DNA from: a bacterium
Lineage (GTDB): Bacteria; UBP18; UBA7526
Assembly: GCA_030615855.1 (NCBI GenBank)
Contig: JAUWYL010000020.1
Coordinates: 1-25,212, forward strand
Direction of reading: 5' to 3'
Length of the DNA stretch: 25,212 nucleotides
The number at the start of each line of letters is the position of its first letter. Positions within the stretch are counted from its first letter, which is position 1. The translations under genes were made by a program, and so were the position numbers. Shown one piece after another: positions 11,441 through 24,989 of the stretch. Under the pieces are notes generated by a model that worked only from the letters and a program-made list of their open reading frames with translations, was not told where the DNA came from and searched no databases.

Positions 11441-11782
11441 GAACCTCCGATTTCATCGGAGAACCTTGTTTCTCGCTTTGCTCAAAATAAGAACCTGACT
11501 TCGTCAGAACCTTGTTTTGCTTATTGAAGTTCCGATATCTTAAAATAACGGCGCGCTTCGCTCTCCGTCGTCTTTTGCTTATTAAAGTTCCGATACCTTA
11601 AAATAAAAGACATTATTCTCAGATATTCCAGATAGGCACTCGTTTCACTCGTGCTCTATCTTCCTTCGGACAGCCCCTTTTATCAAAGAGGCTGGGTTCG
11701 TATCAGTTGAGCCCCGCACCTTAACCCGAAGGGTAAGGGGCGGTCGGAATTGAATTTATTCAAGTTCCGATACGATAAAAAA
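11441..11782. repeat. Repeat-filled convergent gap lptG/ahcY
   Basis: No gene seen in about 385 bp. It is a nest of hairpin repeats. 11437-11471 is a unit ATAAGAACC-(TCCGATTTCATCGGA)-GAACCTTGTTT. 11484-11545 is the full 62-nt element (copy B). 11573-11603 and 11754-11780 are partial copies of its GAAGTTCCGATAC part. Between them are CGGCGCGCTTCGCTC-like and CACTCGTTTCACTCG short repeats, plus an inverted pair around 11680-11745 (GCCCCGCACC...TAAGGGGCGG-like). Confidence 0.8.
11484..11545 (+). repeat. 62-nt dispersed hairpin repeat, copy B
   Basis: Reads AAAATAAGAACC, hairpin CTGACTTCGTCAG, GAACCTTGTTTT, CTTATTGAAGTTCCGAT, ending TTAAAA. 59 of 62 positions match the minus strand of 1219-1280. 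The three differences are transitions. Confidence 0.85.
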
Positions 11783-11811
11783 GGGGCGGCTCATTTAGAG
11801 CCGCCCCTTTT
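11783..11811. terminator. Bidirectional intrinsic terminator
   Basis: Perfect 10-bp stem GGGGCGGCTC/GAGCCGCCCC with loop ATTTA, preceded by A6 and followed by T4. It can terminate lptF-lptG from the left and the ahcY operon from the right. Confidence 0.92.
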
Positions 11812-15956: not shown

Positions 15957-17008
15957 CCCTTGGCCAGCTCTTTCTTGAAATAGTCGATAGCCTCAACTGG
16001 GGTGGGGTCTATTCTGTTGAGGATAGCGAGGTAATAACTCACCCAATCCCCGAGATAGATGAGAGAGAAGAGGCGGGCGAGAAGGCTTTTTCCTTGAGAA
16101 TAGAGGAAGTCCAGGCCATGTGCCTTTCTCCTGATAATCTTAGAAGTAATCTCTATCCTCTTCTTTATTCTGGGAGAATCATACCTATCCCGCAGGATGA
16201 TGAGATAGCACCTCTTAAGGATTTCTGGCAGACATTTCCAGCCAACAATCTCATTGTGGCTTAATTCGGGGAAGGTATTGGAGAAGGCTAAGACCTTGCT
16301 ATTCTCAGATAGCTGTCCCTTCCAGCGCAGACCAACCGGGGAGAGGATGGGAGAGGTATAGATTAGAGGGAGATTCTTATGTAATTTAAGGGCTATTCTC
16401 TTCGCCTGATTGGAACCCACTTTTGATGAGAGAGAAAACTTTCTTTTCAAATCCTTGAGCAACCGAAGGGTCTCCTGGCATTCCCGCTTCTTACTTTTAA
16501 CTAGTCCCAGGCGCTCTAAGCTGATAAGTAAGGAGAAGAAGAGATAGCCTAAAGAGGCCCGGGGAGGAAGCCCAGAGGGTATAGAGACTACCGGAACCCC
16601 GTCTCTCTTGGCTAATCTGCCCAATCTTCCTCCGGTAGTGATGGCTATCATCTTCGCCTTCTTCTTTGCTGCCTCTCGATAGGCAGAGAGGGTTTCTTCT
16701 GTATTCCCCGAGTAACTGACAGAGGAGACCAGGGTTTTAGAGTCGACGAACTCTGGAAGGGAGTAATTCTTGTTGATCACCAAGGGGATTCTTAACTCTG
16801 GTTCTATCACGCTCTTCAATATCTCTCCCCCAATACCTGAGCCACCCATTCCACAGACCAGAATCTTGTCAATCTTCTTGTATGAAGGAAGAGAAGATTG
16901 AAGGGCTATCTCAATTGCTCGGGAGCATTGATCAGGAAAATCAGCCAAAAGATAGGCCATATCTTTCTTATCATACTTCTCAAGATCTTTTAGGTTATCA
17001 AGGTTCAT
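15953..17008 (-). CDS. Bifunctional phosphoglucose/phosphomannose isomerase family protein
   Basis: 351 residues. First SIS domain with LVCGMGGSGIGGEIL (residues about 50-64) and SVSYSGNTEETLSAYREA (about 95-112). C-terminal domain with LSHNEIVGWK, where a Glu/His pair is typical of the PGI/PMI family. Interconverts fructose-6-P with glucose-6-P and mannose-6-P in characterised members. No separate pgi is seen. The start codon and its AGGAGG-like site lie within a 12-nt sequence that pairs perfectly with a segment just after the ptsI stop, so translation may depend on ptsI translation. Overlaps the nucleotidyltransferase by 4 nt. Confidence 0.9.
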   Translation of the reverse strand: MNLDNLKDLEKYDKKDMAYLLADFPDQCSRAIEIALQSSLPSYKKIDKILVCGMGGSGIGGEILKSVIEPELRIPLVINKNYSLPEFVDSKTLVSSVSYSGNTEETLSAYREAAKKKAKMIAITTGGRLGRLAKRDGVPVVSIPSGLPPRASLGYLFFSLLISLERLGLVKSKKRECQETLRLLKDLKRKFSLSSKVGSNQAKRIALKLHKNLPLIYTSPILSPVGLRWKGQLSENSKVLAFSNTFPELSHNEIVGWKCLPEILKRCYLIILRDRYDSPRIKKRIEITSKIIRRKAHGLDFLYSQGKSLLARLFSLIYLGDWVSYYLAILNRIDPTPVEAIDYFKKELAKG

Positions 17009-17104
17009 CCCGCCCCTCCTTCTCTAAAATTATCAATGTATTTTTCCTATTTTTCATGTATTCTCACTTTTCCCATTAAACTAAATCGTATCGAGGGGCG
17101 GGAT
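17007..17104 (-). promoter_or_regulatory. Shine-Dalgarno-sequestering long-range stem, ptsI/isomerase gap
   Basis: On the minus strand ATCCCGCCCCTC (17104-17093), starting 7 nt after the ptsI stop codon, is the perfect complement of GAGGGGCGGGAT (17018-17007). The latter contains the downstream Shine-Dalgarno and the first two bases of the ATG. 74 AT-rich nt lie between. The same 12-mer in the same register recurs before lptB. Confidence 0.7.
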
Positions 17105-17111
17105 TCATCAT

Positions 17112-18857
17112 TTAAGTTACCGCTTCCGGCAAGATCTTCCTTGCCTTCTCTTTAAGGAGGGCTTCGATCTCTTGGGCAGTAGAAAGATTCAGAGCCTTTC
17201 TGGAGAGTTCTTCTGCCTCCTTTAGAGTGAGAGAGCGAACGACTTCTTTCACTTCAGGAATGACAATGGGGCTCATGCTTAATTCATCCAAACCTAGACC
17301 CAATAGGAGAGGAGTAAAGAGGGACTCTCCGGCCATCTCCCCACACATCCCCACCCAAATCCCTGCCTTATGTGCCCCATCAATGATTCTCTTCAAGAGG
17401 TGCAGTACCGCAGGATGTAGGGGCTGATAGAGATAGGCGATGTTCTCATTCACCCTATCGATGGCTAAGGCGTACTGAATGAGATCGTTGGTTCCAATAG
17501 AAAAGAAGTCCACCTCTTTAGCAATGGATTCACAGGTGAGGGCCGCAGAGGGAATCTCGATCATGGCTCCTACTTCTAAGTTTTTGTTAAAGGGAATTCC
17601 TTTCTTCTTAAGTTCTTCTTTAACTTCGCTCAATATCTGATTTGCTTTCTTCACCTCCTCAACCCCGGAGATCATGGGATACATGACTTTTAAATCCCCA
17701 TAGGGGCTGGCCCTTAGTATGGCCCGTAATTGATCCTTGAAGAGAGGGATATCTGCCAGGCAGAGCCTGATGGCCCTTAGGCCCAAGAAAGGGTTCATCT
17801 CTGGGGCGAGGTTGAGGTAGGATAAAAACTTATCTCCTCCCAGATCTAGGGTCCTGATGATTACTGGATGGGGAGAAAGCTTCTGGGCCACTTCCCTATA
17901 GGCCTTAAACTGCTCATCGATAGAGGGGAGATCATCCCTTCCCAGATGAAGAAATTCTGTACGATATAGCCCGATCCCCTCTCCCCCGTGCTCCTTGACA
18001 TATTTAATCTCATCCGGAACCTCAATATTTGCTGCTAAGATTATCCTATGGCCATCGAGCGTTTGGGCCGGAAGGTCCTTTAACTTAACTAACTCATGCT
18101 CGAAGACCTCAAAGGACTCCTTATCTTTCCTATATCTCTTTAGAGTCTTTTTATCTGGGGTTATAATCACCAACCCATGACTGCCATCCACAATCAGGGT
18201 ATCAAGCGCCTGGGCTTCTTGAGTGATATTCTTCAATCCCACTACGGCCGGGATCTCCAGAGCCCGGGCCATGATTGCCGTATGGGAGGTCTTGGTTCCC
18301 ATATCTGTGGCAAATCCGATCACCTTCTCCTTGTGCATGGATACCGTATCAGAAGGGGAGAGGTCGTGGGCTACGACGATGACCTCTTCCTTCAGGGTGG
18401 CCAGAGTCTCCCTCTCCTTGCCCAGAAGGTTCCTCAATATCCTCCTTTCCACATCCTTAATATCTACTGCCCTTCCTTTTAGGTAGGAGTCTTCCATGCT
18501 GCTGAAGGTCTCTCGGAAAGTCTCCAGGACCTGGGAAAGGATATACTCCACATTGATCAATTCCTCTTTCACCCCCTGAGTGACCTTCTTTATTAAATAG
18601 GGGTCTTTCAGGATCAAGAGGTGGGCATCAAAGATATAGGCCTCCTCCTTTCCCAATCTTTTAGCGACCTGGGCCCTTATCTCTTTGATCTCTTCCTCTG
18701 TTTTGGCCAGGGCTTCCTGGAAGCGTGAGATATTCTTAGAGACCATGTCTTTCCTGATGGGTCTCTTCTTTATCTCGAACTCCTCCTTATCCAGGAAGAA
18801 GACCTTTCCCACCATTACTCCGGGAGAAGCAGGAATCCCCTTCAACTCCTTCATCAT
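17112..18857 (-). CDS. ptsI: Phosphoenolpyruvate-protein phosphotransferase (PTS enzyme I)
   Basis: Transfers phosphate from PEP to HPr. 581 residues, typical length. N-terminal KGIPASPGVMVGK; phospho-His192 in GTKTSHTAIMARALEIPAVVG; PEP-binding GIGLYRTEFL, IRTLDLGGDK, FFSIGTNDLIQY and WVGMCGEMAG (active-site Cys) in the C-terminal barrel. Start ATG overlaps the HPr stop (ATGA). A second ATG follows immediately. No EIIA/B/C gene is in the window, so the pair may have a regulatory role or serve a permease elsewhere. Confidence 0.97.
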   Translation of the reverse strand: MMKELKGIPASPGVMVGKVFFLDKEEFEIKKRPIRKDMVSKNISRFQEALAKTEEEIKEIRAQVAKRLGKEEAYIFDAHLLILKDPYLIKKVTQGVKEELINVEYILSQVLETFRETFSSMEDSYLKGRAVDIKDVERRILRNLLGKERETLATLKEEVIVVAHDLSPSDTVSMHKEKVIGFATDMGTKTSHTAIMARALEIPAVVGLKNITQEAQALDTLIVDGSHGLVIITPDKKTLKRYRKDKESFEVFEHELVKLKDLPAQTLDGHRIILAANIEVPDEIKYVKEHGGEGIGLYRTEFLHLGRDDLPSIDEQFKAYREVAQKLSPHPVIIRTLDLGGDKFLSYLNLAPEMNPFLGLRAIRLCLADIPLFKDQLRAILRASPYGDLKVMYPMISGVEEVKKANQILSEVKEELKKKGIPFNKNLEVGAMIEIPSAALTCESIAKEVDFFSIGTNDLIQYALAIDRVNENIAYLYQPLHPAVLHLLKRIIDGAHKAGIWVGMCGEMAGESLFTPLLLGLGLDELSMSPIVIPEVKEVVRSLTLKEAEELSRKALNLSTAQEIEALLKEKARKILPEAVT

Positions 18858-19837: not shown

Positions 19838-20563
19838 TCACTCTAAGGTAAACTTCTCGCCAAGATAGATTTCTCTGGCCTCTTTACTATTCGCCAGTTC
19901 CTGAGAGGTACCAGAGATTAGAATTTCCCCTTCATACATAATATATGCTCGATCGGTGATGGCCAATGTTTCTCGCACGCTATGATCGGTAATCAAAACC
20001 CCGATCCCCTTCTTCTTGAGTTGAAAGATGATCTCCTGGATATCAGCAATGGCAATGGGATCGATACCAGTAAAGGGCTCGTCCAGTAAAATGAAGGAAG
20101 GGGTAGTAACCAGAACTCTGGTGATCTCCACCCTTCTCCTCTCTCCGCCAGAGAGGGTATAGGCCTTGTTCTTGGCAAGGGGGGAGAGATTGAGTTCTGC
20201 CAAGAGCTCCTTCAGCCTCTTCCCCTTCTCTTCCTCTGTCAGATCCAGGGTCTCCAGGATGGCCAGGATATTTTCCTCAACAGTGAGCTTTCTGAAGATG
20301 GAGGGCTCCTGGGCAAGGTAACCGATCCCCTTTCTCGCCCTCTTATACATGGGGAGTCTGCTAAGATCGAAGTCGTCGATGAGTATCTGCCCCCGATTTG
20401 GCTTGACCAATCCCACGATCATATAGAAGGTGGTGGTCTTTCCTGCTCCATTGGGACCCAGAAGGCCAACGATCTCTCCCTCCCTTACCTCTAAGTTAAC
20501 ATCGTTTACCACTCTCCTTCTCTTGTAGCTTTTGACCAGGCCCTGGATCTTTAGGGTCTTCAC
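19838..20563 (-). CDS. lptB: LPS export ABC transporter ATP-binding protein LptB
   Basis: Cytoplasmic ATPase driving LptFG. 241 residues from the GTG at 20563 ([19 protein letters not shown]). Walker [12 protein letters not shown]-loop [17 protein letters not shown], signature [11 protein letters not shown], Walker [14 protein letters not shown]-loop His in [10 protein letters not shown] reject an in-frame upstream ATG at 20617, whose 18 extra residues would be translated from an intergenic CCACGGATTT repeat. The GTG instead has AGGAG seven nt upstream. The Shine-Dalgarno and the start GT are complementary to sequence just after the lptA stop codon. Confidence 0.95.
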
Positions 20564-20717
20564 CCCACCCCTCCTTTTGTATTCAAAACAGCAACCACGG
20601 ATTTCACAGATTTCCACGGATTAGTATTCTTTTTAAAAATCTGTTTAATCCGTCCAATCCGTGGTTTTATTAAAGTCTTCGAAGCTACAAGATTATCAAT
20701 TCCGTGAGGGGCGGGGT
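20562..20717 (-). promoter_or_regulatory. Shine-Dalgarno-sequestering long-range stem, lptA/lptB gap
   Basis: On the minus strand ACCCCGCCCCTC (20717-20706), directly after the lptA TGA, pairs with GAGGGGTGGGGT (20573-20562) in 12 bp with one G-U. The 3' arm contains the lptB Shine-Dalgarno side and the first two bases of GTG. 132 nt of spacer include a second hairpin (20595-20664). Confidence 0.7.
20595..20664. repeat. Inverted decamer/nonamer array CCACGGATTT in lptA/lptB gap
   Basis: Three decamers of CACRGATTTC type (20595-20624) face AATCCGTCC and AATCCGTGG (20647-20664). The outermost CCACGGATT and AATCCGTGG are perfect complements, giving a stem around an AT-rich loop. Confidence 0.88.
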
Positions 20718-21356
20718 TCATTCCTTCTCCTCTGGGATGAATTTTATTCTTGCTTTATTCTCAACCACCACCCGGTACTCATCGACATACAGGGTTATTC
20801 TCTCCCCAGTGACCAGATTCTCTTTTTCTCTTATCTCAGGATTACCAGTCAAGACGGCCTTTCTCTCTTTGTCGAAATAATCGAGGACCTTACAGGTGGC
20901 AACCATACCATCCCTTACTAACTTCACCCTTCCTGTGGCCCGCAATCTATCCTCTGGTAGAAAGGCCTCTATCTTCTTACTGGTCAGGGTAAAGTTTTCC
21001 TTCTCGCTGACCAATTTTGGCTTTCCTGTTGCCATTCCGTACCTTCTATCATGGTAGTATTCTATTCTTTCACCTGTTAAGATCATTTTCTGTTTCTCGT
21101 CCTTCATCCAAGCCCGGCCTTGGGCAACGGCCTTATTCTCATCCGGGAAGAGTTTTAGTTGATCACTTCTTAGAGTAGTGGTCCCCTGAACAGCAACCAC
21201 ATGGCCGGTAAATACTACTACCTCTTTCCCCTTCACCTTAGAATATTCTACCTCATCTGAGGTAATATCCAGAGGGGGACCTTTCTTCTCTGTCCCCCAG
21301 GAGGGAAGGGCAAAGAGTACGAGGATCAAAGATAGAAAGATTAGTTTACGGTGCAC
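20718..21356 (-). CDS. lptA: Periplasmic LPS bridge protein LptA (OstA-like)
   Basis: Forms the periplasmic beta-jellyroll bridge carrying LPS to the outer membrane. 212 residues. Signal peptide MHRKLIFLSLILVLFALPSWG, then LDITSDEVEYSKVKGKEVVVFTGHVVAVQG, the OstA-fold start, with repeated beta-strand segments (LTGERIEYYHDRR, LTSKKIEAFLPEDRLRATGRVKL, VTGERITLYVDEYRV). The GTG start at 21356 lies inside lptC, overlapping its end by 11 nt, with GAAGG six to seven nt upstream. Immediately followed by the putative coupling stem to lptB. Confidence 0.9.
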   Translation of the reverse strand: MHRKLIFLSLILVLFALPSWGTEKKGPPLDITSDEVEYSKVKGKEVVVFTGHVVAVQGTTTLRSDQLKLFPDENKAVAQGRAWMKDEKQKMILTGERIEYYHDRRYGMATGKPKLVSEKENFTLTSKKIEAFLPEDRLRATGRVKLVRDGMVATCKVLDYFDKERKAVLTGNPEIREKENLVTGERITLYVDEYRVVVENKARIKFIPEEKE

Positions 21357-23820: not shown

Positions 23821-23921
23821 CGTCCCTCGTCCCTCATCCTTCACCAATCCACCCAATCCAACTAATCCAACTAATTTACTACCCACTTTCCCACTTTCTC
23901 ACTTTCTCACTTTCTCACTAT
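23821..23921. repeat. Successive heptamer, nonamer and octamer arrays, kdsA/kdsD gap
   Basis: Three arrays of different period side by side: CRTCCYT x3 (7 bp, 23821-23841), CYAATCCAM-type x4 (9 bp, 23844-23879), CYCACTTT x5 (8 bp, 23882-23921). TTAATATTGG is duplicated just left (about 23789-23808). The last array runs into kdsA and provides its stop codon. Confidence 0.92.
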
Positions 23922-24728
23922 CCTGTCTATTTCTTTCACCTCTTTTAAGAGTTTTGCTACTTCCTCTAGCCTCATCATGTTGGGACCATCGGATAACGCC
24001 TTATCTGGATCGGGATGGGCCTCAAGGAATAAGGCATCTACCCCACAGGCCACCGCTGCCCGAGCAAGATAGGGGATATAATCCCTATTTCCACCAGTTG
24101 CTATCTCCATTCCCCCGGGAAGTTGAACGCTATGTGTGGCATCGAAGACCACGGGATATCCCAAGGAACGCATGATGGGCAGGGATTTCATATCAACCAC
24201 TAAATTATTGTAGCCGAAGGTGGTTCCCCTCTCTGTTAATAAAATATTCCTATTCCCTACGGATTCAATCTTCTCAACGACATTCTTCACATCCCAGGGG
24301 GCTAAGAACTGACCCTTCTTGACATTCACCGGCTTTCCTGCCTTGGCCACTGCCAGAACGAAGTCTGTCTGGCGGCATAAGAAAGCCGGGATCTGTAAGA
24401 TATCTGCTATCTTACTGACCGCGGGCACCTGTTCTCTCTCATGGACATCGATTAAGAGGGAAATGTTCAACTCTTTTTTTATCTTTTCTAAGATTTCAAG
24501 ACCCTTTTTTGGGCCTGGGCCACGGTAGGACTTTATCGATGTCCGATTCGCCTTATCATAGGAGGATTTAAAGATAAAGGGCATTCTTAATTCGCTGGTA
24601 ATCTCTTTTAGTCTCCTTGCCGTTTGAAAGGTCTGCTCCCCTGTTTCGATAACACAGGGCCCAGCGATCAAAACCAGTGGATTATTTCCACCAATCCTGA
24701 TATTCCTTACCCTTACTTCCTTAACCAT
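23907..24728 (-). CDS. kdsA: Kdo-8-phosphate synthase, metal-dependent type
   Basis: Condenses PEP with arabinose-5-P. 273 residues. IAGPCVIETGEQ (Cys25), SSYDKANRTSIKSYRGPG, CRQTDFVLAVAKAGKPVNVKKGQFLAPWDVKNVVEK, ERGTTFGYNNLVVDMKSLPIM, DATHSVQLPGG, EAHPDPDKALSDG. Cys in the first motif, as in Aquifex, marks the metal-dependent class; E. coli KdsA has Asn there. The final codons (IVRK, TGA) are made from the CTCACTTT octamer array on the opposite strand. ATG 24728, GAGG six nt upstream. Confidence 0.97.
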   Translation of the reverse strand: MVKEVRVRNIRIGGNNPLVLIAGPCVIETGEQTFQTARRLKEITSELRMPFIFKSSYDKANRTSIKSYRGPGPKKGLEILEKIKKELNISLLIDVHEREQVPAVSKIADILQIPAFLCRQTDFVLAVAKAGKPVNVKKGQFLAPWDVKNVVEKIESVGNRNILLTERGTTFGYNNLVVDMKSLPIMRSLGYPVVFDATHSVQLPGGMEIATGGNRDYIPYLARAAVACGVDALFLEAHPDPDKALSDGPNMMRLEEVAKLLKEVKEIDRIVRK

Positions 24729-24751: not shown

Positions 24752-24989
24752 CATTTTACATTGAGCATTGAACAACGAACAATGAAATCTGAAACCTGTA
24801 GTGAAATTAGAAATCTGAAATCAGTATTCCGTTTTTACTACCAATCCACCTAATCCACCTAATCTACTATCTACTTTCTAACTTTCTAACTTTCCCACCT
24901 GCCCATCTGTTCACTTTCCCACTTTCCCACTTTCACATTTTGCATTGCTAATTTTGCATTTTTCATTGATCACCGATTACCGATTACTG
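24752..24989. repeat. Four arrays in the kdsB/kdsA gap
   Basis: CATTGAA-type heptamers x5 (24752-24786), CYAATCYAC nonamers x3 (24841-24867), CYMACTTT-type octamers x9 (24870-24941), and ATYACCG heptamers x3 (24969-24989). TGAAATCTGAAA-like units lie between. No gene seen in the roughly 255 bp. The last array contains the kdsB stop codon. Confidence 0.9.

Follow-up and report, generated by a model that had tools for sequence, protein, structure and literature searches.

Small inverted-repeat elements at start codons appear to rebuild the start site and to couple translation through a leader frame

The stem at two gene junctions

Two gene junctions in the window (the whole 25,212-nucleotide stretch of DNA analysed) carry the same stem in the same register relative to stop and start codon. 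Does this stem regulate the genes, move between them, or do both? lptA (minus strand, 20718..21356; PF03968) ends in ...GGAATGA, with its TGA at 20718-20720, and is followed directly by ACCCCGCCCCTC (20717-20706). The complementary GAGGGGTGGGGT (20573-20562) contains the Shine-Dalgarno of lptB, an ABC transporter ATPase (minus strand, 19838..20563; PF00005), together with the GT of its GTG start. The junction of ptsI with the gene for a SIS-domain phosphoglucose isomerase (PGI) has the same layout with an ATG start (arms 17104-17093 and 17018-17007). A sequence-only reading of this DNA had placed the lptA/lptB arms correctly, with their single G-U pair, and its spacer lengths of 132 nt (lptA/lptB) and 74 nt (ptsI/PGI) hold. 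It offered two readings, a coupling device that can be carried from gene to gene, or an element whose terminal inverted repeats measure 12 bp. We argue it is both at once. The mobile part stands, with repeats of 11 bp and a target duplication; the coupling part we infer from anatomy and evolution. Our main reading is that a small non-autonomous inverted-repeat element inserts at the TGAR of a start codon, rebuilds the start site, and couples translation through a leader. We give this a probability of about 0.8, and mobilisation by a GIY-YIG nuclease is less certain.

Element anatomy

The terminal inverted repeats are YCCCGCNCCTC...GAGGNGCGGGR, 11 bp long, and the insertion target is a start codon of the form DTGAR, with TGAA or TGAG left on either side. 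The order on the coding strand is old Shine-Dalgarno, old start DTGAR (which often overlaps the upstream stop), YCCCGCNCCTC, spacer, GAGGNGCGGGR, TGAR. The final arm base (R) plus TG makes the new start codon, and GAGGNG in the right arm is the new Shine-Dalgarno. The outermost arm bases are complementary in all 50 paired copies (35 C-G, 15 T-A, 0 mismatches). The spacers fall into families that are unrelated to one another.

All of this can be read at lptA/lptB on the minus strand. The bases flanking the arms are a direct repeat, TGAA (20720-20717 and 20562-20559). The TGA of the left copy (20717..20720) is the lptA stop, and this copy is identified from the sequence and from an empty orthologue in a related genome, G003. 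The original ATG (20719..20721) overlaps that stop as ATGA, and G003 lptB begins at the same ATG. In the window it now opens a leader frame of 53 codons and a stop (20560..20721; MNPAPHGIDNL...NTKGGVG), which ends exactly at the TGA overlapping the lptB GTG. The left terminal repeat is CCCCGCCCCTC (20706..20716). The right one, GAGGGGTGGGG (20563..20573), is the Shine-Dalgarno plus the first base of the lptB start codon, and the right TGAA (20559..20562) supplies the TG of the GTG as well as the leader's TGA. Between the repeats lies a family 1 spacer (20574..20705) with a nested CCACGGATT...AATCCGTGG hairpin at 20597-20662. This nested repeat is absent from the G004 and G005 orthologues (L133, L034), whose leaders read MNPAPHRIDNLEIEKLEMIDFFFIEVICLSIKGGAG and similar, each followed by a stop. 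The window leader stays open through the hairpin, though its copy is 51 nt longer.

The second element, also on the minus strand, has TCCCGCCCCTC as its left repeat (17093..17103, target TGAA 17107-17104) and GAGGGGCGGGA as its right repeat (17008..17018, target TGAA 17007-17004). The right repeat supplies the PGI ATG. This site is empty in G001, G004 and G005; the empty PGI site was recognised by inspection. Rfam families in the window are tRNAs only.

The predicted RNA fold at lptA/lptB has a free energy of -58.4 kcal/mol (z -5.1), with the arms paired and the new Shine-Dalgarno and start enclosed. In three other predicted folds (z -3.4, -3.4 and -6.2) the arms likewise pair around the Shine-Dalgarno and start. 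It must be noted that in two copies (L042 in G002, L048 in G004) the element frame is continuous with the downstream gene, a possible N-terminal extension.

Abundance and placement

The window's genome (G000) is 1.375 Mb and 94% complete. It was compared with five others, G001-G005, of the same uncultured bacterial family; five of the six are incomplete (53-85%). The arm GAGGGGYGGGRT has 31 exact matches in G000, against 2 for a reversed-pattern control. The stricter GAGGNGYGGGRTGA has 64 sites in the six genomes and none in the control, and in 53 of these sites an ORF of 55 aa or more has its first codon. As a rough control, RTGAR sites in these loci open 55 codons or more in 30% of cases. 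These counts bear out the earlier claim that a shared arm with shared placement is unlikely to be chance. The enrichment at start codons is partly ascertainment, because an arm in use as a Shine-Dalgarno site is lost more slowly. Some 11 arms are found away from gene starts, and the genes downstream of elements are functionally unrelated.

The sequence-only reading also proposed a test, by which copies scattered without regard to start codons would speak for a mobile inverted repeat rather than for regulation. We regard this as a false dichotomy, since the copies are mobile and yet, for the most part, placed precisely at start codons.

The element is present in all six family genomes, and GAGGGGYGGGRTGAA occurs at most once per genome among 35 other bacteria. 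A scan of 84,980 genomes with the paired-arm pattern found it in the MAGs KR13_S3.mb.88, CSMAG_2758 and HyVt-354 and on one contig of a Clostridia MAG. Matches in Desulfovibrio and Omnitrophota look like chance. In the MAG labelled Clostridia (WJOT01; L168, L189-L195), a complete element has a GIY-YIG-like leader (MNPAPQNWFCVYLLRSKKNGRIYI...GGAG and a stop), and short hairpin copies occur as well. The presence of the element in this apparently unrelated MAG is either horizontal transfer or a binning error.

Evidence for insertion

Matching empty and filled sites are found at 17 loci, where the orthologous empty site matches the left flank as far as the start codon. The clear cases are porB, hypF, ybbR, ftsX, tsf and lptA/lptB. 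The lptA/lptB site is empty in G003, which reads GGAGAAGGA|ATGAGAATC. The window itself has an empty target, ATGAA at the HPr/ptsI junction (18853..18857, minus strand), reading GGAGAGGAATGATGAAGGAG. This site is filled in G001 and G002, where the G002 orthologue is ATGAA[CCCCGCACCTC...GAGGTGCGGGG]TGAAGGAA. TGAA flanks both sides in 43 of the 50 paired copies and TGAG in 2. One can imagine that TGAA is a fixed part of the element. However, ybbR in G002 has TGAG on each side and its empty relatives read ATGAGGAATTGG (ATGAG), so the tetranucleotide must be duplicated target. That rules out a fixed TGAA.

Different elements occupy the same start codon across genomes at UGD, ptsI and tsf. Hairpin versions of 29-30 nt are nested in longer copies (L040 against the un-nested L046, also L058), intergenic copies exist, and right arms without a left partner occur (L001, L025, L134). 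We conclude from these comparisons of related genomes that the arms are terminal inverted repeats of a dispersed mobile element that inserts at start codons, with sequence comparison as the basis.

Several loci deserve separate mention. The tsf start codon is a hotspot, with different elements in G002, G000, G004 and G003 and none in G001 (L104, L251, L256, L281, L248). A distinct element with arms CCCGTTAGA/TCTAACGGG (L259, contig C11 of G001) sits at a start codon that holds the usual element in G000. The lptA/lptB junction of G001 (L300, contig C61) has no element, and GGAATGTGAAG replaces GGAATGA there. This is possibly the footprint of an imprecise excision.

The leader frame

The old start is in frame with the TGA of the 4-nt stop-start overlap in 29 of the 50 paired copies. 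In 27 of the 50 the leader is also open as far as this TGA, where the new start is GTG or ATG. The 23 without an open leader include the ptsI/PGI copy of the window and the fmt copies, and such broken frames mean that the leader is not indispensable.

A functional leader peptide was considered and rejected. Differences within families fall on codon positions 1, 2 and 3 at 139, 139 and 151, synonymous single-difference codons number 60 where 59.9 are expected, and a Pfam search of the main leader families gave no match. All 14 in-frame copies tested are stop-free, for which the neutral chance is about 0.009 when related copies are treated as independent. Length changes within three spacer families, judged by reading lengths, are multiples of three in about 7 of 9 cases against an expected one in three (p about 0.008), with the caveat that a 30-nt nested hairpin is also found in a copy whose frame was already broken. 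A neutral peptide in a frame that is kept free of stops implies that the amino acids seem unimportant and that the open frame probably matters. This fits a leader that acts as a conduit for ribosomes and not as a peptide with a function of its own.

The sequence and the empty and filled sites show the first steps. The element enters a start codon at its TGAA or TGAG and leaves a copy of this tetranucleotide on each side, the right arm with the duplicated TGAR forms a complete new start site, and the old start codon, with its old Shine-Dalgarno, opens a short frame through the element. We propose the steps that follow. Ribosomes from the old start would translate this leader and melt the stem between the arms, in which the new Shine-Dalgarno is hidden; they would then reinitiate at the overlapping TGA/RTG and translate the downstream gene. 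Leader translation and restart would explain why insertion into operons, including at essential genes, is tolerated: a gene hit by the element is probably still translatable. The anatomy, the predicted folds, frame retention and evolution fit this proposed translational coupling. A GIY-YIG nuclease of larger relatives with the same ends may move the short elements, although this step is less certain.

Alternative explanations

It is worth considering whether a hairpin that never moved could account for these data. On this account it evolved, or was kept, at chosen operon junctions, and pairing with the Shine-Dalgarno conserved its arms. The arms do pair and enclose the Shine-Dalgarno and start, arm variants are complementary, and many of the junctions lie within operons. 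None of this accounts for exact empty sites with target duplication at 17 loci, for differing elements at one start codon between genomes (UGD, ptsI, tsf), or for nested and intergenic copies next to functionally unrelated genes. We consider it very improbable, and as a complete explanation a purely regulatory stem is refuted by the empty sites.

An ordinary miniature element moved by an unseen conventional transposase is a better alternative, though still an unlikely one. Purifying selection would have left it at start codons, and the open frame would be incidental. Elements of this kind typically combine inverted repeats with a 4-bp target repeat, an open leader is missing from almost half of the copies, and the ascertainment noted above favours arms that act as Shine-Dalgarno sites. 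However, it does not make sense of ends and target that together form a perfect Shine-Dalgarno and start codon, or of frames that remain stop-free while the peptide is neutral and whose length changes within families come mostly in threes. The sole enzyme seen inside such ends is also a GIY-YIG nuclease. Least credible of all is a REP/RAYT-type element from IS200/IS605 with TGAA as its tag tetranucleotide. It would account for short GC-rich hairpins beside a nearly fixed tetranucleotide and for the 29-30-nt hairpin versions, and the abundance of short palindromic copies alongside a rare, larger nuclease-encoding relative does resemble that system. Yet the Y1 transposase (PF01797) was found in none of the six family genomes, five of them 53-85% complete, while the control gave matches in five genomes. 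The candidate enzyme here is GIY-YIG, and at ybbR the tetranucleotide behaves as duplicated target and not as a fixed tag. The mobile element that rebuilds the start site remains our preferred reading.

A candidate mobilising enzyme

The short element copies in the window have no GIY-YIG ORF. The ptsI copy of G002 encodes MNPAPPKIYYVYLLKSCEKTWIYVGFASDLSRHLQEHSQYIGGAG followed by a stop, which matches PF01541 with an E of 4.3e-4, just under the family cut-off. In G000 an intact GIY-YIG ORF (L171, 58.7 bits) lies between closely similar ends, CCCCGCACCTTTT and AAAAGGTGCGGGG, and the following gene takes its start codon from the right end. Another intact ORF, common to G000 and G002 (L177, L180), is bounded by CCCCGCCCCCATTT and AAATGGGGGCGGGG and flanked on each side by TCAA. 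A truncated one is found within the same type of ends (L103).

The association was examined more generally with small GIY-YIG ORFs from many bacteria, 86 non-redundant loci in total. Perfect flanking inverted repeats of at least 11 bp are present at 24 of the 86 and of at least 13 bp at 14, against 1-2 and 0 when both flanks are shifted outward. Leaving out the family G000-G005 gives 19 of 77, and a mismatched-flank control agrees. This excess makes GIY-YIG a candidate mobiliser; it may be the enzyme moving the start-codon elements and not a passenger. Several of the flanking repeats (L319-L407, various bacteria) are TGTCATTGCGAG, GTCATTCCCGCG or CTGAGCTTGTCGAAG, which we take to be common dispersed repeats of bacterial genomes. 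Some of these occur in both orientations and are absent from shuffled sequence.

One can imagine that small GIY-YIG nucleases mobilise a widespread and apparently undescribed class of prokaryotic inverted-repeat elements. The start-codon elements and some common dispersed repeats (those beginning TGTCATTGCGAG, GTCATTCCCGCG and CTGAGCTTGTCGAAG) would be its nuclease-less derivatives, as REPs are to RAYTs. We hold this tentatively, at somewhat less than even odds. A search of the mainly open-access, published literature for bacterial REP or inverted-repeat elements linked to GIY-YIG gave nothing on point, and a search by sequence of the common repeats gave unrelated papers only.

Comparison with known systems

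The closest parallel is with the MIRUs (mycobacterial interspersed repetitive units), which in the account of Supply et al. 1997 given in PMC12548453 appear mobile, insert at start codons and carry an ORF coupled at -4 spacing. Both are small dispersed units at DTGA starts with a co-oriented short ORF whose end overlaps the following gene by 4 nt (here in 27 of the 50 copies), and in the MIRU the host gene stays expressed. The same review describes both unfolding and scanning as routes of coupling. Our element belongs to another bacterial family and differs in having terminal inverted repeats whose stem contains the Shine-Dalgarno, a TGAR duplication, mutually unrelated spacer families and a GIY-YIG association. 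The loci read have single or nested copies and not tandem arrays. By these descriptions the element would work like a MIRU; we do not claim that it is one.

Like the bacterial MITEs (Correia/NEMIS, ERIC, RUP; PMC2229807) it is short and has inverted repeats (50 paired copies), a target duplication seen against empty sites (17 loci) and no transposase, and some MITEs also have open frames. Unlike them it lies at start codons and rebuilds the Shine-Dalgarno and start, and its frames overlap the next gene rather than fuse with it, except for one N-terminal fusion (L042/L048). Rickettsia palindromic elements (RPE; PMC2229807) share the palindromic ends, the open frame and tolerance in conserved genes. 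However, RPEs lie in frame within proteins, whereas this element lies between genes and its frame ends in a stop (only L042/L048 are fused). Free-standing GIY-YIG homing endonuclease genes also have a PF01541 domain in a small, apparently mobile ORF. The present elements differ in that inverted repeats form their termini, the duplicated target is short, copies are dispersed over many sites and nuclease-less derivatives exist; no homing into one allelic site was seen for them.

The start-codon strategy is thus already known from MIRUs. What appears new, within the mainly open-access, published literature covered, is the concealment of a new Shine-Dalgarno by inverted repeats, along with the TGAR duplication and the GIY-YIG link. 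If our reading is right, this is a second, apparently unrelated instance of the MIRU strategy, in which a mobile element survives in operons by way of start codons and rebuilt translation. Empty sites and nested copies expose successive insertion steps, and genes that have a leader in one genome and none in another offer natural experiments on coupling. In such genomes, what is annotated as a start or seen as an intergenic stem may be mobile DNA. GIY-YIG nucleases would be possible mobilising enzymes in prokaryotes.

Other repeats in the window

A dispersed repeat, TTATTGAAGTTCCGATACCTTAAAATA, occurs at 1217-1280 and 11484-11547 (95% complementary over 64 nt) and also at 11573-11606 and 11750-11783. 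Sequence related to TTATTGAAGTTCCGATACCTTAAAATA is found within some elements (L018, L096, L125). Arrays of 8-nt units of the ACTTTCCC/ACTTTCTC type lie at 23869-23931 and 24857-24951.
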